A stretch of 64,000 bases of DNA from Planctopirus ephydatiae (GTDB taxonomy: Bacteria > Planctomycetota > Planctomycetia > Planctomycetales > Planctomycetaceae). Within the stretch, counting starts at the first letter, position 1; each line of letters starts with the position of its first letter. Made by a program: the position numbers and the translations under genes. This document shows positions 38,144 to 51,928 of this stretch, piece by piece. The notes under the pieces were generated by a model. It was not told the DNA's origin, did not search any database, and saw nothing but the letters and a program-made list of their open reading frames with translations. The DNA lies in NCBI RefSeq assembly GCF_007752345.1, contig NZ_CP036299.1:4870001-4934000 (forward strand), written 5' to 3'.

Positions 38144-38617
38144 GCGTATGTTCCTGCAGCAGAATCTGTTTTAATATCCGGGTGATTTTAGGACGCTTTG
38201 ATTCGCGGCGTTCTCTGTCAGAAAGCTCTCAATGACAAGCAAAGTCATCACTAAGCTCGTTTAAAGACAGAGTACCGTTCGGACATCATGGGTTACGAGA
38301 ATTCTCCGAAAATTGATACCAAATCAAAGGGAGAAGTTCTGCGGTGCCATTGAAAGTCATCACGAAGACGTTTGGGTATTTGCGATACTGATGGACATTT
38401 GTGTTGGTTTTTGGATTTTTCTTGCGAAATTGATGACCATACGCCCAGCGCAAGTAATTCCCGGAACTTTTTCCACGAAATGGTCTTCCCTATGGAATCA
38501 GTGGTTGAGACAGATGGGCAGAATCAGGTTTATTCGGACAATCAAGTCCCGGCCTGCCTCAGGTTCGGGGCACATGTCATATCAATTACTCTCGATTTGT
38601 ACCGCAAAAGGTGTTTC
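38144..38617. other. Divergent spacer
   Basis: About 470 bp lie between the divergent ABC operon and the 1000-residue lipoprotein gene. Several frames are open across it, including one continuous with the lipoprotein, but no family features or signal peptide appear before the chosen ATG. I see no promoter strong enough to mark. Confidence 0.5.
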
Positions 38618-41600
38618 ATGAGATTCTGGATCAGACCTCGCGGTTCGAACCATCCAGGCCCCGTCGGCCACAAGCTAGGCATGGGCATCCACTGGATGAT
38701 CCTGTGCTCTTTAACGCTCTCGATCCTTTCGGGATGTGGGCAAAGCCCATCGACCAGCCAGACTCCCGAACAGGTGATATCGAAGGCAAGCACTGCTGCA
38801 ACTGAACCCGCCGCGAATACCTCCACAACCACACAGCCTCAGATCGCCGCCAACTGGCTCGAAAATCCTCAGGCCATCGACTTGTCTGGGCGGTATGGGC
38901 GCCGATTGCAGATCGCCTGGAAAGACGCCACTCGCGATCCCATAGAGGCCGATGATGACGACGACTCGATGGCAGATCGCGATGTGACTTCCACGAGTGA
39001 TCCAGCAGACGCGAACGATCCCCTGATGGCCGAGAATCTTCCAGCGGGCTCGTCACAGGTCAGCACAGCCAAAGACGAGACTGCTGGTGAAACCAACGCA
39101 GAGAAACCTGACGATGCCAGCGTGAGCCAATCGTCTCAGGCCGATTGGTATGTGCTGATTGACGGTGAGCCCGTGCGAGACGAGACCGGGATCCTGTTGT
39201 CGATCCCTTGTGAAGTGCGTGTCCCTCCTGGTCCTCATGAAGTGACTTTGGCTCAGCCGGGAATGGTTGATCTATCGAAAAAAGTGGAGATCCGGCAGGA
39301 TCGCAAAGTCAGTTTCGAACGACCCGAGAAGCCGGTGCGTGGAGCCTCTTCGCTTTCTGGGCCACTCTTTGACCTGGCAAGAGGCGAGTTCCTTCCACTC
39401 GATGAACTCAACACTGCCGGGAAAGAGTACGACCCCTGGCTTTCTGCTGATGGACTCACGCTGGTCTTTGCCGGTGATCGAGCGGAAGGCCGAGGCGTTT
39501 ACCTGGCGACACGTCCCACAAGGTACCATGCCTTCTCGCCTGCCGAGTTAATTGAAATTACACGGTCGGGCGAATTCGTGGCCACACCCGTCCTCTCACC
39601 GGATGGGTTGAGTTTGATCTATGTGCACCCCGCCCGCACGCGGATCTGGCTGCTGGAACGCAATTCCGTCGATGAACCCTTTGTCAAACGGACGGCCCTA
39701 AGAAGCATCGATCAGCAAGGGTTCGAATGGATCGGGGCCCAACTGATGTTCCCAGAGGCCATTTCACAGACACCGCAATTCAAAGCTTCCGCAAACTTTC
39801 AGTTAGCCTGGATCGAACGCAACGCCGCAGGTCAACAGCAGATCTTTGTCGCCGAAGGGCCGAGTCTGGGGAGTTTGTCCAAAGCTCAGAGCAAAGCGGT
39901 CATTTTACCCGGAGACCGGCCCTGGTTCACAGCTTCGACGGATCGGCAATTCAATCTCGATGGTCATGTTCTGCAGAGATGGATTCGTGAACAATCTCTT
40001 GGGCCGGTCGCCTCAGCGCTTTATGGAAATCCATCGCCTATCGGAGAGTTTCCCGCTGGATTTCCTCCTCCACTCGCCAACGAACGATCGCTGTATATTA
40101 CCGATGATGAGCAGTGGGCTGTCGCTGCCGTCACATCCGCAGCCAGTGAAGCCACACTACAACAACAGCCGGGCGATCTCATGCTGCTTCGTCTCTCTGA
40201 TGGCCCGCAATGGGGTTGGAAATTCCAGGGGCGCAGTCTGAAGCCAATCCCGTCCACCGAGACCACACCGCCGACATTAGTCGCTGATCAGTCAGCCACG
40301 AAAGTCATTGATGCAGAAGACCGTTCATCACCAGCCACGACGAATCCATCAACCCCCGTTCGTGAGGAGATGGATCCCTCCACGAGGACGAACGCCAATC
40401 CCGCGGGGACCGTAGTGAACCAGCCTGCACAACCGGTGGAAACTCAAACAGCTTATTCGACCTATGAAAAATCGCTGGCTGAGTTTCGCAAGGCTGTGGA
40501 AGCACGCGATTATGAACAGGCGGCACAAATCCTCCAGCAGCGGCGAGAAACTTCGTTTGCGACCGCTTTGGATCCACTGACAGAACTCGACCTCGCCTGG
40601 CTGAAAACACTCAATGAGTTTCGGGCCATGGTGAACGATGGTGTTCGCCAGTTGGAGCCCGGCACCACAGTGCGCGTTGGTTCAGCAAAACTGGAGTTGA
40701 TTGGTCTCAAAGAGAGTGTCCTGAGTTTGAAGTCGCGACTGAAGACCATTGAAAAACCTTTGTGGGAAATGTCGACGGGCGATCTACTGGCACTGGCCGA
40801 ATCTTTTCCGGGAGGGACGAATCAGGCATCCGCGCTTAAGACGCTCGCTTTTGTAAAGGCAGATCCTCTTCTACCAGCCCGAGTGATCGAATTGTGGCTG
40901 GGCCGCGCAGGCCCCGGCGGACAGGATTTTCTCGAAGGCTTCAGCACTCGCGAACTTGAAGAAGGCCGCCTGGCACTAGCAGAAAATCGGTTAAGCAGTG
41001 CTATCGAGCATTTTGGCAAGGCGATTGCCGCCGGGCCGGAAAGACCTGCCGCACAAGCAGCCGAAAAGGAAAAAGCCCAGCTCTATGATCGCACTCGCTG
41101 GAAAATTGTTGGCAGGCGTGACTGGGCTCGCGGCCCTGATGGAGAATGGATTGCTGATGCCAAGCGGATCGACGGGGCTTATCTCGTTTCCGAAAGTGAT
41201 TACGAGAACTTCGTGTGTGAGTTTGAATGGAAAGCCGATCAACCCGGTGCACAGGGTGGCCTTTACTTCCATTATGCCGGTGAAGGAAACCCCTTTGAAT
41301 TTGGCTATAAAATCCATCTTGCTGGCGACATGGATCAGCAGGGAATGGATCAATATTCGACGGGTGCCCTCTTTGGATCGGATGCGCCAAAAAAGAAGGT
41401 CGCCAAAAAGAATGCGTGGAATCGCTTCCGTTTGACGGTCGTCGGCCCTAAGACGACTGTTCAGATCAACGATGAAGTGGTGCTCGAAACCGATGTGCCT
41501 GTTTCTAAAAGCGAACCGCGTGGTTATCTGGCAATCGACGGGGTGGGTGGCGCCTTCCGCTACCGCAAGATTCTGGTTTATGAACCGAGTCCCACTCCAG

Positions 41601-41620
41601 CCACCAAGGCTCAAAACTAG
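38618..41620 (+). CDS. Lipoprotein with TolB-like and DUF1080 (3-keto-disaccharide hydrolase-type) domains
   Basis: The 1000-residue product has a lipoprotein signal ending LSILSGC (acylated C40), a Ser/Thr/Asp-rich linker, a short PEGA-like part (VPPGPHEVTLAQPGMVDLSK), a region with beta-propeller repeats of the TolB/PD40 kind (YDPWLSADGLTLVFAGD; TPVLSPDGLSLIYVHP, about 270-470), a second linker (about 550-610), a helical region (about 615-830) and a C-terminal DUF1080 lectin-like domain (about 830-990; GGLYFHYAGEGNPFEFGYK). The domain order suggests carbohydrate binding or hydrolysis at the cell surface. AAAGG stands before the chosen ATG. Other planctomycete surface proteins share the C-terminal domain. 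Confidence 0.85.
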   Translation: MRFWIRPRGSNHPGPVGHKLGMGIHWMILCSLTLSILSGCGQSPSTSQTPEQVISKASTAATEPAANTSTTTQPQIAANWLENPQAIDLSGRYGRRLQIAWKDATRDPIEADDDDDSMADRDVTSTSDPADANDPLMAENLPAGSSQVSTAKDETAGETNAEKPDDASVSQSSQADWYVLIDGEPVRDETGILLSIPCEVRVPPGPHEVTLAQPGMVDLSKKVEIRQDRKVSFERPEKPVRGASSLSGPLFDLARGEFLPLDELNTAGKEYDPWLSADGLTLVFAGDRAEGRGVYLATRPTRYHAFSPAELIEITRSGEFVATPVLSPDGLSLIYVHPARTRIWLLERNSVDEPFVKRTALRSIDQQGFEWIGAQLMFPEAISQTPQFKASANFQLAWIERNAAGQQQIFVAEGPSLGSLSKAQSKAVILPGDRPWFTASTDRQFNLDGHVLQRWIREQSLGPVASALYGNPSPIGEFPAGFPPPLANERSLYITDDEQWAVAAVTSAASEATLQQQPGDLMLLRLSDGPQWGWKFQGRSLKPIPSTETTPPTLVADQSATKVIDAEDRSSPATTNPSTPVREEMDPSTRTNANPAGTVVNQPAQPVETQTAYSTYEKSLAEFRKAVEARDYEQAAQILQQRRETSFATALDPLTELDLAWLKTLNEFRAMVNDGVRQLEPGTTVRVGSAKLELIGLKESVLSLKSRLKTIEKPLWEMSTGDLLALAESFPGGTNQASALKTLAFVKADPLLPARVIELWLGRAGPGGQDFLEGFSTRELEEGRLALAENRLSSAIEHFGKAIAAGPERPAAQAAEKEKAQLYDRTRWKIVGRRDWARGPDGEWIADAKRIDGAYLVSESDYENFVCEFEWKADQPGAQGGLYFHYAGEGNPFEFGYKIHLAGDMDQQGMDQYSTGALFGSDAPKKKVAKKNAWNRFRLTVVGPKTTVQINDEVVLETDVPVSKSEPRGYLAIDGVGGAFRYRKILVYEPSPTPATKAQN

Positions 41621-41903: not shown

Positions 41904-43883
41904 ATGCGGACGTTGCTTGTGGGAAGCGTGCTATTGCTGGTGATTGCGGTCGCCATTGAATCGGTCTGGCCACAGACGGGTGATCGCCCTCCGGAAAATG
42001 GGCCGCGAGAAAATGGCCCTCCCCAAAATGCCCCAGGTGGCGGCTTTCCACCCTTTGGCCCTCCCGGTGGATTCCCTGGGTTTGGCGGGCCACCGGGCTT
42101 CGGCGGCCCCCCCGGTGGTGGAAAGGAACGCAAGCTGCTCTCGAAATTCGATGCTGACAAAGACGGCAAACTGAATCTCGAAGAGCGACAACTGGCTCGA
42201 AAAGAATCCACTCAGGGAGGTGCTGGCTTCGGCGGACCTAGAGGGCCTCGCGGCGGTATGGGTGGCATGGGAACCAATCGTACTCAACAAGCAGGGAAGA
42301 AAATCCTGCCCGAGAATGTGACTTCAGCCGGTGAGGCTGATCTTTACGATCCGTCGATCGTCCGGACAATTTTCTTGAACTTTGAAAGCAAAGACTGGGA
42401 ACGAGAACTGTCCGACTTTCACAATACAGATGTCGAAGTTCCCGCCATAATGCAGGTTGATGGCAAAGACTATCCCGATGTCGGCGTCAGCTTCCGCGGC
42501 ATGTCATCCTACGATATGGTGCCAGCTGGCTTTAAGCGGTCATTCAATGTTTCCATCGATGCCTTTAACGACCAGCAAAAGCTCGGCGGCTACAAAACGC
42601 TGAATTTACTTAACTGCAATGGTGACACTTCATTTTTGAGAGGTTTTGTCTACTCTCAGATCGCCACGGAGATGATCCCCGTCCCTCGCGTGAACTTTGT
42701 TCGTGTCGTTGTGAATCACGAAGACTGGGGTGTATTCGCCAACGTTGAGCAATTCAACAAAGACTACATCAAAAGGCACTTTGAGAGTAGCAATGGCTAT
42801 CGGTGGAAGGTTCCAGGAAGTCCTATGGGACGCGGTGGTCTGGAATATTTAGGGGATGATACCAATGCCTACAAGCGAATTTACGAGATCAAAAGTAAAG
42901 ACACTCCTGAGGCCTGGGAGCGATTGATCTCTTTGTGCCGTATTCTGAATGAGACACCTGCGGAGCAGCTGGTCGAAAAACTGGAGCCAGTACTCGATAT
43001 TGATGAGACACTGAAATTTCTGGCGCTTGATGTCGCGCTCTGTAATAGTGATGGCTATTGGACTCGCGCGAGTGATTACAGTCTCTACTGCACCCCTGAA
43101 GGGAAATTTACACTGGTTCCGCACGACTTCAATGAGATCTTTCAATCGGGTGGCCCCGGCGGCCCGCCAGGTGGCGGACCGCCGGGTGGATTTGGGCCCC
43201 CACCATTTGGTTTTCCTCCATTTGGTCCACCATCCGAAGTCCAACCCCCATTCGGGCCGCCGGGTGGTGCACCCAATGGATTCGGGCCACCTCCCAATGG
43301 AAATAGCACTCCTCCTGAGGGACGAGTTGCCGGTAATCCCAATGGCCCTCCTCAAGGGCCGGGTGGCGGGCAAAATCCGCGGGGTGGCCCAAGACGTGGC
43401 CCCGGGGGCGGTGGTCCCGGTGGCGGTGGGCCAGGTCATGGTGGACCGACACTCGATCCACTGGTCGGGCTCAACGATTCGACAAAGCCGCTGCGCAGTA
43501 AACTCCTTGCTGTTCCAGAACTCAAGGCTCGCTATCTGAAGTATGTCGGACAGATTGCCGATCAGTACCTGGCAGCCGAATTCCTCAAGCCTCGGATGCA
43601 GCAGGAGTTTGAACTGATTTCACCACTGGTGGCTCAGGATCAGAAGAAGCTCTTCACCACAGCTGACTTTGTGCGCGAATCCAAGTTTATTGTGGTGCAG
43701 AATTCCTCAGAGAATGCTCGCTCGACGCTGTGGGATCAGATGCAGAAACGACGGGAATTTCTGCTCAAACATGCGGAAGTGCGAGCCGCCCTTGGCAAAC
43801 AGGAAGCCGAGGGGCGAACATCGGCCATCAAAAATCAGCGACACCAGAACCGACAACAGGCTCCCTTGTCGTCAGCTCGCTAA
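41904..43883 (+). CDS. CotH kinase family protein with EF-hand and Gly/Pro-rich inserts
   Basis: The 659-residue product has a short signal segment (LLVGSVLLLVIAVAI), a Pro/Gly/Phe repeat region (about 28-72), an EF-hand with calcium-ligand spacing DADKDGKLNLEE (D83 to E94), a short Gly/Arg-rich part, and a CotH domain (about 140-415) with VSFRGMSSYDM, NLLNCNGDTSFLRG and PHDFNEIFQ blocks. A second Gly/Pro-rich insert of about 100 residues (about 415-515) follows, then a helical C-terminus. CotH proteins are atypical secreted kinases that phosphorylate spore-coat proteins. The VTC and DUF4956 genes directly follow, so the three likely work together. Confidence 0.87.
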   Translation: MRTLLVGSVLLLVIAVAIESVWPQTGDRPPENGPRENGPPQNAPGGGFPPFGPPGGFPGFGGPPGFGGPPGGGKERKLLSKFDADKDGKLNLEERQLARKESTQGGAGFGGPRGPRGGMGGMGTNRTQQAGKKILPENVTSAGEADLYDPSIVRTIFLNFESKDWERELSDFHNTDVEVPAIMQVDGKDYPDVGVSFRGMSSYDMVPAGFKRSFNVSIDAFNDQQKLGGYKTLNLLNCNGDTSFLRGFVYSQIATEMIPVPRVNFVRVVVNHEDWGVFANVEQFNKDYIKRHFESSNGYRWKVPGSPMGRGGLEYLGDDTNAYKRIYEIKSKDTPEAWERLISLCRILNETPAEQLVEKLEPVLDIDETLKFLALDVALCNSDGYWTRASDYSLYCTPEGKFTLVPHDFNEIFQSGGPGGPPGGGPPGGFGPPPFGFPPFGPPSEVQPPFGPPGGAPNGFGPPPNGNSTPPEGRVAGNPNGPPQGPGGGQNPRGGPRRGPGGGGPGGGGPGHGGPTLDPLVGLNDSTKPLRSKLLAVPELKARYLKYVGQIADQYLAAEFLKPRMQQEFELISPLVAQDQKKLFTTADFVRESKFIVVQNSSENARSTLWDQMQKRREFLLKHAEVRAALGKQEAEGRTSAIKNQRHQNRQQAPLSSAR

Positions 43884-43991
43884 ATGCCCGTGGCAGTCTA
43901 TGGGAATGGAGTGTGATCAGCATCTACTCTCACTTCTCGAATTGCTTGCCTATGTAGCACCTTGCCACCGATTAATAGCAAAGGACGCCCT

Positions 43992-44822
43992 ATGTATCTT
44001 GCGATGAACCCGAGTAACGATACTGACTGCGACGCCGTATCGATACCTGGGGAAAGATTACTGCCACCGCATGATTTCCAGCAGAAACTCAAGTTTTCGT
44101 TTCGTGAATTGACACAAAAACTGTTAACCTCTCCCATCTCAGAAACGAAGTATCTCATTTCAAGATCGGTCGCTGATCTTGTTTCTGGATGGGCACAAGT
44201 TTATATGCAGCCCGACCAGCATGCTGATCCTGCATTAGGAGATGGCTACTGGGTGCGTACTTTATATCTCGATACGCCGGGGGCTGACATTTATCACCGC
44301 CGAGGGGTTGGTCGCAGCAGGAAATTTCGCGTTCGCGGGTATGGCAGTTCTCCTGAACTCTGGCTGGAAATGAAGTGGAAGCGGAGAGAAAAAGTCCGCA
44401 AGCGTCGTACCGTGATTCATCAGGATCGGCTTCCGCTGATCATGGCAAATTCATCTCAGGAACATGAGTGGTTTTCCAATCGAGTTCATCGCTACCAGCT
44501 ACAACCCGCCTGCCAGATCACATATCGACGTCAGGCTTATCTATGTCGGACATCACATGGGGTCTATCGACTCACGCTTGATCGCGAGGCATTTTCACAG
44601 CCGCATGATGGATGGAGGGTACCTCTCGAAACTGGAAACTGTCGGATTCTGAATGCGGAGAACGCTATTCTGGAATTAAAGTATCAGGGCGATTTCCCGA
44701 TCTTTTTCCGGTCGTTAGTGGAGTTGATTCCTCAAGTTCCGTGCTCGTATTCCAAGTATCGACGGGCGATTTCCACTTTGATGGATCAATCCATGGGGGA
44801 TTCTGCATGCCCGACTGGTTGA
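43992..44822 (+). CDS. VTC domain protein (polyphosphate polymerase-type)
   Basis: The 276-residue product matches the VTC domain, a tunnel fold of the triphosphate tunnel metalloenzyme superfamily. Early on stands SETKYLISRSVAD, with the basic residues of the tunnel (KFRVRGYG, WLEMKWKRREKVRKRR), and NAILELKYQGDFP gives an acidic metal-binding strand near the end. In yeast, VTC4 makes polyphosphate from ATP. Bacterial relatives may do so or bind phosphate chains; the reaction here is inferred. AAAGGACG sits before the ATG. It overlaps the DUF4956 gene by 16 bp and follows the CotH gene by about 110 bp. Confidence 0.85.
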   Translation: MYLAMNPSNDTDCDAVSIPGERLLPPHDFQQKLKFSFRELTQKLLTSPISETKYLISRSVADLVSGWAQVYMQPDQHADPALGDGYWVRTLYLDTPGADIYHRRGVGRSRKFRVRGYGSSPELWLEMKWKRREKVRKRRTVIHQDRLPLIMANSSQEHEWFSNRVHRYQLQPACQITYRRQAYLCRTSHGVYRLTLDREAFSQPHDGWRVPLETGNCRILNAENAILELKYQGDFPIFFRSLVELIPQVPCSYSKYRRAISTLMDQSMGDSACPTG

Positions 44823-45496
44823 CCGCTTTTTCGCTACCGTCGGCACCTCCTCAGGACTGGAAGACTATCGTAGCCTCGATGGTGCTATCGGTTCTCTTAG
44901 GGATGACGATTGGCCAGATCCACCGCTGGACACGTCCGCTTCACTCCGGGAGTGCCTCATTTCACGCGACTTTGGTCTTGATGACGATCCTGATTACGCT
45001 GGTCACACAAGTGATTGGCGATAATGTCGCGCGGGCTTTCAGTCTGGTGGGTGCGTTGTCGATTGTTCGCTTTCGCACCGTGGTTCGCGATACGAAGGAT
45101 ACAGCGTTTGTCATCTTTGCTGTCGTGATTGGTATGTGTGCCGGTGCTGAACGCGGCTGGCTGGCGATAGGAGGGACCATCCTCGTCGGACTGGTCGCGG
45201 CCATCTATCGAGATCGTCCCTATAACCCTTCGACTTCGCTGATCCGTTACCGGTTAATCCTGCGGATGGGGCTGGCACAAGAAGTGGAAACACAGGTGCA
45301 TGCCCTGCTTCAACAGGTCACCCGGAGCTATGACCTCGAAAGTCTCAGTACAGTTCGTCAAGGGAGTGCGATGGAAATGACCTACTCCCTACAATTGAAC
45401 CGTGCGATCTCGCCGCGTGAGTTGCATGCACAATTGAGTCGCATCGAAGGGATCCAGAGTGTCGAACTGACGGCATCCATTGACGATGATCGTTGA
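44807..45496 (+). CDS. DUF4956 membrane protein
   Basis: The 229-residue product has four hydrophobic helices in its first 140 residues (VASMVLSVLLGMTIGQI, ATLVLMTILITLVTQVIGD, TAFVIFAVVIGMCAGA, WLAIGGTILVGLVAAIY). The strongly conserved DUF4956 block FSLVGALSIVRFRTVVRDTKD lies between helices two and three, and a soluble alpha/beta domain of about 85 residues (about 145-229) ends the chain. This is usual for DUF4956. Its start, preceded by GGGGGA, lies inside the VTC gene, so the two are coupled. In other bacteria DUF4956 genes are often found beside VTC and CotH genes. Its function is not established; a channel or scaffold for the polymerase is a guess. Confidence 0.88.
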   Translation: MPDWLTAFSLPSAPPQDWKTIVASMVLSVLLGMTIGQIHRWTRPLHSGSASFHATLVLMTILITLVTQVIGDNVARAFSLVGALSIVRFRTVVRDTKDTAFVIFAVVIGMCAGAERGWLAIGGTILVGLVAAIYRDRPYNPSTSLIRYRLILRMGLAQEVETQVHALLQQVTRSYDLESLSTVRQGSAMEMTYSLQLNRAISPRELHAQLSRIEGIQSVELTASIDDDR

Positions 45497-47836: not shown

Positions 47837-50800
47837 TTAACTGCAGCCGAGGCTGGTGCCGCAGTTGTGGCAGAGGTAGCAGGCTCCGTTTCTTACGGTG
47901 ATTGAGCCGCAATTGCTACAGGCGGGGGCGTCGGTCTGGAAGCGGCTGAACTGCTGGCTCCGGGATTGATCCAGAACATGGAGTTCAGCGTGCGTGCTTC
48001 CATTCGTCTTGCCATGGCTGGCGTGGCCATTGGACGTGTGCCCGTTGGTGGTGTGGCTGCCGTTTGTCCCGGAGGTTGGCAGGGGTGCGTGAATTCGCTT
48101 TTCCAGTGAAGCTGGCAGCTTGTCACTCCCCTTGATCTCCGGCTTTAGGCTGCCGTTCAAGCCGTGTGCTGCTTTGCCGGCCGGAGTCGCAGGTGCGGCT
48201 CCGGCCACGCGATGACTTTCGGCACTCTCGCCTTCTTCACCAGAGGCCGATTCAGCTCGCCGCGGGACGTTGGCCTCGCGGAAGCCGGGCATGAACTGGA
48301 TTGCCATCCAGCGGAAGATGTAATCGACTACACTCTTCGCGTTGGGGATATCCGGGTTCTGTGTCCAGCCCGAAGGTTCGAACCGGCTGTGCGAGAATTT
48401 CTCGACCAGAACTTCGAGCGGTACGCCGTACTGGAGGCACATCGAGGTTTCGGTCCCGATGACATCCATCAGGCCACCGATGGTTGAACCTTCTTTAGCC
48501 ATACTGATGAAGAGTTCGCCCGGTGTGGCATCTTCAAACAGACCGACAGTGATATAGCCTTCGTGCCCGCCCACCGAGAACTTATGCGTGAGCGAGTGGC
48601 GGGTCGTGGGCAACCGGCGACGGACAGGCTGGCCTGGAGCCACTTCCTTATTGCCATCGCCTCCCTTTTTCACGTTGAGTGGCTGGCTTTGCTTGGAACC
48701 GTCGCGATAGACAGCCAGTGCCTTCAGGCCCAGTCGCCAGCCTTCGGCATAAGCCTTTTCGATATCTTCGACTGTCGAATCAGCAGGCATGTTGACCGTC
48801 TTGGAAATCGCACCTGAGAGGAACGGCTGAGCGGCTGCCATCATCTTGATGTGAGCACGCCACTGAATGCTGCGTGTTCCACTGGCAGGCTTGAAGGCAC
48901 AGTCGAAGACTGCGAGATGATCTGGTGAAAGATCGGTCGCCGCTTCGATGGTGTCGTGCTCTTCGATGGCCTTGACGATTCGTTCGACTTCGGGGGAATC
49001 GTAGCCGAGGGTCTTCAGAGCGAGTGGCACAGTGCGATTGACGATCTTCATCAGGCCGCCACCAGCCAATTGCTTGTACTTCACGAGAGCGATATCGGGC
49101 TCAATGCCCGTGGTATCGCAATCCATCATGAAGGCAATGGTTCCTGTCGGTGCAAGGACTGTGGCCTGGCTGTTGCGGAAGCCGAAACGGCGACCACTAT
49201 CGACCACATCATCCCACACTTCTTCGGCTGCCTTGCGAAGTTCTTCGGGGCAGGACGAATCGATGCGATCGACGGCGTCGCGATGCATACGCATCACGCG
49301 GAGCATTGGGTCGGCATTGTTGCGGTAGCCCTCGAATGGACCGGCGAAAGCTGCAATTCGCGAAGAAGTGAGGTAAGCCTGACCGGTGAGCAGAGAGGTC
49401 AATGCCCCGCAAATCCCGCGACCAGCCGCACTATCGTAAGGAATGCCCATCGACATGAGGAGGCTGCCCAGGTTGGCATAGCCCAGACCAAGCGGACGGT
49501 ACTTGTGGCTGTTGGCAGCGATCTGTGGAGTCGGATAGCTGGCGTGATCGACCAGAATTTCCTGAGCTGTCAGGAAGATATTGATCGCGGAACGATAGCG
49601 TTCGACATCAAAGCGACCATCATCCCGCTGGAACTTCCGCAGGTTCAGGCTGGCAAGGTTACAGGCGGTATCATCGAGGAACATGTATTCCGAGCAGGGG
49701 TTCGACGCATTGATGCGACCATCGTTCGGGCAGGTGTGCCAGCGATTGATAATCGTATCGAACTGCACACCAGGGTCACCGCAATGCCAGGCACCTTCGG
49801 CCATTTGCCGCATCACGTAGCGAGCTTCGTAGGCAGGGCCGGGCTTGGTGGCGTCTGTGACCCAATGAGTGACCCATTTCTTGTTTTCTTCGTAAGCCCG
49901 CATGAACTCATCGCTCAGGCGAACGGAGAGATTGGCGTTCTGATACATGATCGAGCCGTAGGCTTCGCCATTGAAGTTCGAATCGTACTCACCCGATTCG
50001 ATCAGGACGCGAGCCTTTTTCTCTTCCTTGAGCTTGCACTGGATGAACTCGAGGATGTCTGGATGCCAGTCCTTGAGCGACTGCATTTTAGCTGCCCGGC
50101 GTGTCTTGCCGCCTGATTTCACAACAGCCGCAATCTGGTCGTAAACTCTCATGAACGAGAGTGGGCCGGAAGGTGTCCCACCGCCCGAAAGTTTTTCTTT
50201 CGCACTGCGGATGGAGGAGAGATCTGTTCCGGTGCCGGAGCCGAACTTGAAGAGCATGGCTTCGCTGGTGGCGAGGCGCATGATGTCTTCCATGTTGTCA
50301 TCGACTGACTGAATGAAGCAGGCACTGGCCTGAGGATATTCATAGGAAGTTTCCGCACGGACGACCTCTTGAGTTTTGAGATCGAAGCGGTAGTTCCCCT
50401 TAGAACCAGCCACACCGTACTGATGGTAGAGCCCGACGTTAAACCACACGGGCGAGTTGAAGCTGCCGTACTGATGGAGACAGAGCCAGGCGAGATCGTT
50501 GTAGAAGTTTTCGCCATCTTCCCGGCTGGCGAAGTAGCCATCGGCAATGCCCCAATCGGCAATCGTGCGGGCCACGCGATTGATCACCTGGCGGACACTG
50601 GTTTCACGCTCCGAGGTACCGTGCTCACCATAAAAGTACTTGCTGACGACGACGTTGGTGGCCAGTGGGCTCCAGTGAGCAGGAATTTCGCAATCCTTCT
50701 GCTCGAACAGCACCTTGCCATTTTCGTCCTTGATGAAGGCGGAACGAAGTTCCCATTCGCTGGTCGAAAACGGATCGACACCTTCGGGGCAAAACTCCGG

Positions 50801-50938
50801 ACGAATCCGCATTGGTGCAGCTTCCGGAAGTGGTCGCGATGTTCCCATCGGAAAACCAGGCCGGGTGCTGGGGGCATTTGTCGGACGGAGGCCGACGGGG
50901 GAAAGTTCAGACGTCGCAAGTCCTTTTTGTTCGTGCAT
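47837..50938 (-). CDS. nrdJ: Adenosylcobalamin-dependent ribonucleoside-diphosphate reductase (class II)
   Basis: The 1033-residue product is a class II ribonucleotide reductase. Typical blocks are YPQASACFIQSVDDNMEDIM, KFGSGTGTDLSSIRSAKEKL (inside the first barrel half), NPCSEYMFLDDTACNLASLN and the C-terminal barrel signature GTIAFMMDCDTTGIEP. It turns ribonucleotides into deoxyribonucleotides by a cobalamin-made thiyl radical, so the cell can make DNA with or without oxygen. The C-terminus ends in a zinc-ribbon-like tail (CSNCGS, CYLCHNCGTSLGCS, last 30 residues) after a long linker rich in Gly, Ser, Thr and Asn. The ATG with GGAG seven bases ahead is chosen. No cobalamin riboswitch is visible in the short leader. 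Confidence 0.95.
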   Translation of the reverse strand: MHEQKGLATSELSPVGLRPTNAPSTRPGFPMGTSRPLPEAAPMRIRPEFCPEGVDPFSTSEWELRSAFIKDENGKVLFEQKDCEIPAHWSPLATNVVVSKYFYGEHGTSERETSVRQVINRVARTIADWGIADGYFASREDGENFYNDLAWLCLHQYGSFNSPVWFNVGLYHQYGVAGSKGNYRFDLKTQEVVRAETSYEYPQASACFIQSVDDNMEDIMRLATSEAMLFKFGSGTGTDLSSIRSAKEKLSGGGTPSGPLSFMRVYDQIAAVVKSGGKTRRAAKMQSLKDWHPDILEFIQCKLKEEKKARVLIESGEYDSNFNGEAYGSIMYQNANLSVRLSDEFMRAYEENKKWVTHWVTDATKPGPAYEARYVMRQMAEGAWHCGDPGVQFDTIINRWHTCPNDGRINASNPCSEYMFLDDTACNLASLNLRKFQRDDGRFDVERYRSAINIFLTAQEILVDHASYPTPQIAANSHKYRPLGLGYANLGSLLMSMGIPYDSAAGRGICGALTSLLTGQAYLTSSRIAAFAGPFEGYRNNADPMLRVMRMHRDAVDRIDSSCPEELRKAAEEVWDDVVDSGRRFGFRNSQATVLAPTGTIAFMMDCDTTGIEPDIALVKYKQLAGGGLMKIVNRTVPLALKTLGYDSPEVERIVKAIEEHDTIEAATDLSPDHLAVFDCAFKPASGTRSIQWRAHIKMMAAAQPFLSGAISKTVNMPADSTVEDIEKAYAEGWRLGLKALAVYRDGSKQSQPLNVKKGGDGNKEVAPGQPVRRRLPTTRHSLTHKFSVGGHEGYITVGLFEDATPGELFISMAKEGSTIGGLMDVIGTETSMCLQYGVPLEVLVEKFSHSRFEPSGWTQNPDIPNAKSVVDYIFRWMAIQFMPGFREANVPRRAESASGEEGESAESHRVAGAAPATPAGKAAHGLNGSLKPEIKGSDKLPASLEKRIHAPLPTSGTNGSHTTNGHTSNGHASHGKTNGSTHAELHVLDQSRSQQFSRFQTDAPACSNCGSITVRNGACYLCHNCGTSLGCS

Positions 50939-51928
50939 CGTGCACTCCATATCCATGGGTTAGGGGTTGGAAATCAGCCTGCCATACCAGCAGACTATAC
51001 ATTATATCACTGCGCACAAACAGACACATCTATCGGCCAGTGCCTGCTTTTTAGTACAGTGGAAACTCACAAATCCGGCGTCGCATCACTGCTTGACCGC
51101 AAAATCACGAAGTGACAACTTTTCAGTTGCCACAGCACTACTGTTGCACCACGACTTTCATAGTTCTGGGGCACTGAAGCGTAATTGGGTGAAAGTTCCA
51201 TACCGGTACAGAACGCAGTCCTTGCTCCGGCATCAGGGCAGATCGCCCATAGAGATCTTTTCGACAGAAAACCACTACTACTTGTGTGAATCAATGATAG
51301 CGGCAACAAGATGTTGACTGCTGTCATGATCCCCACGATACCCCGCCAGAAAAGATTGTCAAGCTCTCTTCGCACTCAATCTTGTGGGTCAAGTGGTTCA
51401 ATCAACCACAAGTGATGGTGGATTTTGGATTTACCAGCCGTGAGAGAATTTCTGGCCGTGAAGATCACTTCACAAACACTCCCTGAGAAGGATTGCGCAG
51501 TTTTCCCAGGTTCTCGAAAGATGACTTGCAAGCGATCTCGTAAACTCGCTGCATTGGCCCAAAACCGTCTGCCAAATCAAGTGAATGACTATCGAGAACA
51601 CCTTGATTTTCAGGTGTTTTCGACAGTTCTGGACGGCCATGCGAACTTTGCGAAGACTCACATCGGCTCTTCAAAACCATTGAACTGCCATCTTTAGCGT
51701 GAGCCAGGCCGCAAAAACTGCCGCTCCTTCTGGGGTGGGTTCACCTTGCTGCCCCAAGGCATTGTCTCGTAACCTGCCAAGGAGATTTCTCATGATGCGA
51801 CCGCTCGTGAGCGATTGTCATCGGACCATCCTGACGATGTCATCCCGCCTTTCACCTTCACTGTCTGCTGCTCTTCCCGCCTGCCGCTCTTCTTCTACGC
51901 TTTCGCCCCGCTCTGCGGAAAACTTTCC
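50939..51928. other. Divergent spacer upstream of nrdJ and the zinc-ribbon gene
   Basis: Nearly 1 kb lies between the divergent nrdJ and the zinc-ribbon membrane gene. Open frames at 51067-51375 (minus) and 51425-51697 (plus) have no family features. A likely nrdJ promoter and a short open frame with a strong ribosome site are listed separately. I see no NrdR box pair close to consensus and no riboswitch fold. Confidence 0.5.
51001..51009 (-). promoter_or_regulatory. Extended -10 promoter element of nrdJ
   Basis: Read on the minus strand the bases are TGATATAAT, a consensus -10 box (TATAAT) with the TGn extension that can replace a -35 box. The best -35 match upstream is poor. Transcription would start near 50993, giving a leader of about 55 nt before the nrdJ ATG. 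This is inferred from sequence only. Confidence 0.55.

Follow-up and report, generated by a model that had tools for sequence, protein, structure and literature searches.

A conserved CotH, VTC and DUF4956 gene trio in Planctopirus ephydatiae with a possible role in polyphosphate export

A 64,000-nucleotide stretch of the Planctopirus ephydatiae genome (contig NZ_CP036299.1, positions 4,870,001 to 4,934,000; hereafter the window, meaning this whole stretch) carries three consecutive genes coding for a secreted CotH kinase-like protein, a VTC-type polyphosphate polymerase and a DUF4956 membrane protein. The trio is real and conserved. It has been noticed previously in other phyla, and a full-text literature search, with most subscription journals outside its coverage, turned up three papers that mention DUF4956 and no functional study of the trio. 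New here are the polymerase-type residues of the VTC protein, the finding that DUF4956 is built like MgtC, the conservation of the EF-hand in CotH, and operons of the form VTC-DUF4956-HlyD-OEP. We tentatively propose that VTC and DUF4956 couple the synthesis of polyphosphate to its translocation, with CotH acting in the receiving compartment, a reading that we regard as quite possible.

Organization of the trio

All three genes lie where the preliminary description of this DNA placed them, on the + strand, and each exceeds its curated Pfam cut-off:

41904..43883, + strand, CotH-family secreted kinase-like protein, 659 aa (Pfam CotH; profile of relatives matches 5jd9)
43992..44822, + strand, VTC-type polyphosphate polymerase, a TTM tunnel protein, 276 aa (Pfam VTC; Vtc4 profile match; AlphaFold2 (AF2) model and Foldseek)
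44807..45496, + strand, DUF4956 membrane protein, 229 aa (Pfam DUF4956; AF2 model; Foldseek and VIA)

The likely start codons are ATG 43992 for VTC and ATG 44807 for DUF4956. The overlap of these two genes noted earlier is genuine, although from the likely starts it measures 16 nt (44807-44822), and ~210 nt only if the longest open reading frame (ORF) is used. CotH and VTC are separated by 108 nt. The 5.21 Mb genome has one gene of each family.

Co-occurrence and linkage

Among 199 Planctomycetota genomes, VTC is found in 58, DUF4956 in 60 and CotH in 64. Both VTC and DUF4956 occur in 56 of the 199, where 17.5 would be expected (phi 0.93, Fisher p 5e-42), and the corresponding phi values are 0.86 for DUF4956 with CotH and 0.81 for VTC with CotH; given the kinship among the genomes the p values overstate their independence, yet the matches span dozens of families. 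DUF4956 lies within 200 nt of VTC on the same strand at 47 of 65 planctomycete VTC loci and at 53 of 57 outside loci, and CotH within 3 kb of VTC at 46 of the 65, some of the planctomycete loci that lack a partner lying at contig ends. In an independent genome collection all three families are present at 51 of 80 DUF4956 loci, the 80 being best matches to a planctomycete query and not an unbiased sample; the outside loci span Acidobacteria, Verrucomicrobia, Actinobacteria, Myxococcales, Armatimonadota and Planctomycetes. The recurrence of the trio in other bacteria, stated in the preliminary description, is thus borne out, and the neighbourhood survey across Planctomycetota found it conserved, mostly with all genes in the same direction, in relatives as well as across phyla.

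Gene order is shuffled among relatives while adjacency is retained, as expected under selection on linkage. A chance neighbourhood of three genes, in favour of which only the 108 nt separating CotH from VTC can be cited, is refuted by the survey, with phi of 0.81-0.93 in 199 genomes and adjacency conserved despite the shuffled order, and we consider its probability negligible. Hanks-type kinases occur near 18 loci and are taken as incidental, their position being variable and such kinases common in these phyla.

Export-type genes downstream of DUF4956

At 13 of the 65 planctomycete VTC loci, drawn from 8 families, a gene for an HlyD-type adaptor lies directly 3' of DUF4956 on the same strand (L082, L092, L093, L094, L095, L108, L199, L200, L201, L213, L214, L216 and L218), the distance between the two genes ranging from a slight overlap to 44 nt. 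Adaptor identity was checked by Pfam in six loci. Twelve aligned adaptors form one coherent subfamily; searched with a profile made from them, the first six reach 460-524 bits, compared with 51 for the next neighbour ORF. A TolC-like OEP gene adjoins in L082, L093 and L200 and, on the opposite strand, in L213, and pilus-type T2SSE genes follow in L199. HlyD adaptors usually work with an inner-membrane transporter. A scan of the adjacent genes on the same strand at the HlyD loci turned up no ABC, MFS or RND transporter, and the sole candidate membrane gene directly there is DUF4956. These operons provide the main new evidence for export, and VTC-DUF4956-HlyD(-OEP) is a possible dedicated polyphosphate exporter. 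Together with the polymerase-type tunnel residues (see below), the HlyD and OEP genes strengthen the earlier suggestion that the VTC and DUF4956 proteins make or pass a phosphate polymer, and the tight pairing of the two genes fits the idea that they work together.

The polyphosphate kinase PPK1 is encoded in 113 of the 199 genomes, that of the window included, and its distribution shows no dependence on that of VTC (phi 0.02). VTC is therefore not simply a substitute storage enzyme, and replacement of PPK1 by VTC was rejected for the same reason.

The VTC protein

The VTC protein matches Pfam VTC (PF09359) with E=5.4e-28 and 98.6 bits (curated cut-off 23), and yeast Vtc4 (3g3q) is matched with E=7e-28 by a profile built from 28 planctomycete members of the family. 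Vtc4 numbering follows the profile alignment to 3g3q, with a chain offset of 185 that was verified at K200 and at K294; beyond K294 we take the same offset to hold. By this alignment K53, R113, R115, K128 and K137 of the window protein correspond to Vtc4 K200, R264, R266, K281 and K294, and R180, R193, E228, K230 and K255 to R361, R373, E426, K428 and K458. These ten positions, which comprise basic tunnel residues, the metal Glu (E228) and the counterpart of the polymerase-specific lysine K458 (K255), are invariant in all 28 sequences, save R115 (26 R, 2 K). In the AF2 model (pLDDT 85) the top 13 Foldseek matches are yeast VTC subunits throughout, ahead of tripolyphosphatases and class IV cyclases. 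No SPX domain was found in the window protein, in which Pfam detects the VTC domain only.

Hydrolytic TTM enzymes have glutamates at positions where Vtc4 has chain-guiding basic residues, and K458 is catalytic in Vtc4 whereas its counterpart is nearly dispensable in a plant hydrolase (PMC4641920). The acidic patch of the hydrolases was compared at the Glu-2, Glu-4 and Glu-171 positions. The Glu-2 position is Arg in 22 of the 28 family members and Ile (I49) in the window protein, and the Glu-171 position is Lys in all 28 (window K230), while the Glu-4 position (window E51) is still acidic, E or D, in all 28. That the protein is a tunnel-type tripolyphosphatase or another TTM hydrolase, as the one acidic-patch glutamate retained at E51 might suggest, is improbable: most family members have basic residues at two of the three glutamate positions of the hydrolase metal site 2, the K458 equivalent is invariant, and the closest structures are all VTC. 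The balance of residues, with the tunnel and the K458 counterpart kept and two of the three glutamate positions mostly or always basic, favours a polymerase, not conclusively. A candidate VTC-DUF4956 fusion protein (L122, 543 aa) was rejected, its N-terminal extension having no VTC match.

The DUF4956 membrane protein

DUF4956 matches its Pfam family (PF16316) with E=1.4e-12 and 48.1 bits (cut-off 30.6). Its AF2 model (pLDDT 88, pTM 0.71) has five predicted transmembrane helices (residues 18-42, 49-70, 74-89, 96-113 and 117-136) followed by a C-terminal beta-alpha-beta-beta-alpha-beta domain. Two features stand out:

45068..45079, + strand, RFRT motif, whose R88 and R90 are invariant (31 of 31 sequences)
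45239..45481, + strand, ACT/ferredoxin-like domain, residues 145-225 (VIA Z about 10-11; Foldseek to 2lqj)

The Foldseek matches to the ACT-like domain include the C-terminal domain of MgtC (2lqj); the fold is common and by itself shows no function. The fold searches covered mainly this domain, the match to a solved structure concerns the ACT part only, and the sequence search with DUF4956 matched no solved membrane protein. The window protein scores 16.5 bits with Pfam MgtC, under the cut-off of 31.4, and matches NCBIfam MgtC/SapB with E=2.8e-6; across the family Pfam MgtC matches 14 of 31 members at E up to 0.05, mostly weakly, and a Planococcus DUF4956 protein at 2.2e-5. In the window's DUF4956 protein Pfam finds weak MgtC and CNNM matches and no VTC-type membrane domain. 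DUF4956 thus resembles the MgtC/SapB proteins in having membrane helices followed by an ACT-like domain and in its repeated weak Pfam matches, but differs from them in its invariant RFRT arginines, its consistent VTC partner and its scores below the MgtC cut-offs. When the positive-inside rule is applied to the R-rich loops near residues 40-44, 88-97 and 136-140, the RFRT motif and the ACT domain are predicted to be cytoplasmic, on the same side as VTC. The protein probably either tethers the VTC enzyme to the membrane or gives the polymer a way out.

The CotH protein

The CotH protein matches Pfam CotH (PF08757) with E=1.3e-39 and 137 bits (cut-off 23.8), and a profile of 23 relatives matches almost the whole of Bacillus cereus CotH (5jd9) with E=1.2e-47. 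Its features are:

41904..41972, + strand, N-terminal hydrophobic signal-type segment MRTLLVGSVLLLVIAVAIESVWP (hydrophobicity profile)
42150..42185, + strand, EF-hand loop DADKDGKLNLEE, CotH residues 83-94 (sub-threshold Pfam match and recurrence of the pattern)
43050..43052, + strand, Asp383, counterpart of the catalytic D228 in B. subtilis CotH (all 19 ungapped sequences have Asp; aligns with NFDG of 5jd9)
43125..43127, + strand, Asp408, counterpart of the catalytic D251 in B. subtilis CotH (Asp in 22 of 23 sequences)
~43149..43475, + strand, Gly/Pro-rich low-complexity insert in the CotH domain (the Pfam match ends at 43148 and resumes at 43476)

The N-terminal segment is the sole strongly hydrophobic stretch: mean hydrophobicity reaches 2.55 at residue 5 and does not exceed 1.16 beyond residue 40. 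Pfam scores the EF-hand below its cut-off (E=0.014), yet the calcium motif reported earlier is better supported than this score suggests, as its pattern is present in 68 of 142 CotH proteins of related loci, mostly near the N-terminus, against 0.6 in shuffled sequences and 2 of 787 other neighbour ORFs.

D383 and D408 were equated with D228 and D251 through the alignment and the 23-residue spacing in 5jd9; the B. subtilis variants D228Q and D251A are inactive (PMC7821199). Near the metal site Asn follows the second Asp (N410) and D391 replaces an Asn, both changes being common in relatives. CotH is a putative protein kinase, and catalytic residues are retained in both the VTC and the CotH proteins. 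Neither of the two findings that the preliminary description had named as refuting its idea, a neighbourhood not conserved in relatives and key residues lost across homologues, was thus made. The window protein shares the kinase domain and the D228 and D251 equivalents with the Bacillus CotH spore-coat kinase (5jd9/5jda; PMC7821199), and differs from it in its signal-type N-terminus, EF-hand, Gly/Pro insert and the D391 and N410 changes; no CotB- or CotG-like substrate was identified for it.

The length of the Gly/Pro insert differs from relative to relative, and some of them, close ones included, have only a short insert or none; for this reason we read it as a probable linker. The biomineral setting that had been suggested from these inserts and the calcium motif is not upheld, as nothing points to mineral formation. 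Among the related loci, L086, L087 and L088 have four tandem CotH genes beside the VTC/DUF4956 pair, and L091, L096, L109 and L113 encode large CotH relatives with extra C-terminal repeats and the D228 position gapped or lost, which are possible pseudokinases.

A proposed mechanism and its alternatives

We propose that VTC and DUF4956 may together be a pared-down bacterial version of the yeast VTC complex (Vtc1/Vtc3/Vtc4), in which the making of polyphosphate is coupled to its translocation by way of a basic channel (PMC9911596). The likeness lies in the Vtc4-type main tunnel residues and in a membrane partner with conserved basic residues; the window system differs in having neither SPX nor the VTC transmembrane domain, and in its separately encoded DUF4956 as the membrane partner. 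The cytoplasmic tunnel enzyme would make inorganic polyphosphate from ATP and hand the chain to DUF4956 in the inner membrane, a protein with invariant arginines on the likely cytoplasmic face and an ACT-like regulatory domain, which would carry or gate the chain across. In some planctomycetes an HlyD adaptor and a TolC-like channel would move it on through the outer membrane, and in the window system, lacking both, the product would end in the periplasm or take another route. The secreted EF-hand CotH would be an envelope protein kinase in a polyphosphate- and calcium-rich compartment. What we observe is the linkage of the genes, the retention of catalytic residues, the fold matches and the HlyD/OEP operons; the polymerase activity, the passage of the chain through DUF4956 and any reliance of CotH on the polymer are inferences. 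A bolder version, in which CotH is an extracytoplasmic kinase taking phosphate from the exported polyphosphate and the trio a self-contained phosphorylation route where ATP is scarce, strikes us as a long shot. The eukaryotic VTC complex is known to couple polyphosphate synthesis with export across the membrane; if our proposal is true, a bacterial pair of genes with another membrane partner would show how polyphosphate can be delivered to the bacterial envelope, give functions to DUF4956 and many CotH-like proteins, and offer a simple heterologous test system.

Several observations weigh against this proposal. The strongest is that CotH and DUF4956 occur without VTC at 17 of the 80 outside loci, and also in four planctomycete genomes that have no VTC gene (G137, G194, G147 and G162, at loci L074, L075, L076 and L223), so that DUF4956 cannot serve the VTC product alone. 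The DUF4956 proteins of L074, L075 and L076 are of the more typical Pfam type. The idea that the VTC-less loci conceal a divergent VTC was rejected, as a low-threshold profile search found none; all four genomes have PPK1, which could be the polymer source. To the same side belong the acidic residue at E51 of the VTC protein, its Ile49 where most relatives carry Arg, and the resemblance of DUF4956 to MgtC, which is not known to be an established polyanion channel. The window operon itself is without HlyD- or TolC-type genes, the best HlyD-profile match in the genome reaching 46 bits, and among the surveyed loci the HlyD link is found in Planctomycetota only.

The ACT-like domain and MgtC resemblance, and the existence of DUF4956 and CotH loci without VTC, would also suit a regulatory module in which DUF4956 is an MgtC-like membrane sensor, binding a small ligand through its ACT domain and controlling VTC, with polyphosphate made for use inside the cell, CotH switched by a separate signal and no export. 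We think this unlikely, since HlyD and OEP genes directly after DUF4956 at 13 planctomycete loci imply that a substrate is transported, CotH is a secreted partner, and PPK1 is already able to serve cytoplasmic storage. The trio might also govern or modify a polysaccharide that is secreted, or a protein layer at the surface, polyphosphate then serving as counter-ion or regulator and not as the main product. CotH, polyphosphate polymerase, DUF4956 and DUF4832 genes adjoin pel in streptococci, clostridia and bifidobacteria, where CotH was suggested as a possible Pel regulator (PMC7112168), and a GT2 glycosyltransferase and a HEAT protein accompany the trio on a Planococcus plasmid in an order like that of Clostridium perfringens NELoc-2 (PMC2879425). 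The Gram-positive Pel loci share with the window the same three families side by side, but the window has the order CotH-VTC-DUF4956, a CotH with an EF-hand and an envelope of Gram-negative type, with no DUF4832 in the flanking genes scanned. No pel biosynthetic genes were found in the direct flanks of the window trio, to which that search was confined, nor other polysaccharide synthesis genes directly flanking it or among the recurrent neighbour clusters scanned, and this explanation is in our judgement rather unlikely too.

Related clusters and flanking genes

The C. perfringens cluster was described as VTC, 'tubulin', CotH, HEAT and glycosyltransferase (PMC2879425), and the order on the Planococcus plasmid is VTC-DUF4956-CotH-hypothetical-HEAT-glycosyltransferase. 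Because this order (compared with L226), the size and the predicted location fit, the NELoc-2 'tubulin/FtsZ GTPase' genes CP4_0461 and CP4_0464, which adjoin VTC genes, probably encode DUF4956 membrane proteins. The trio-bearing Planococcus plasmid also has a Qat anti-phage system a few kb away (L227:5020-9769).

A promoter and terminator scan gave no signal above chance. Just 5' of the trio on the same strand (window 38495-41620) is a gene for a long protein with PEGA, PD40 and 3-keto-disaccharide hydrolase domains, and downstream lies a BD-FAE-type esterase gene (both by Pfam). Farther along, on the - strand (window 47837-50956), a large ORF resembles, judged by eye only, a class II (B12-dependent) ribonucleotide reductase.

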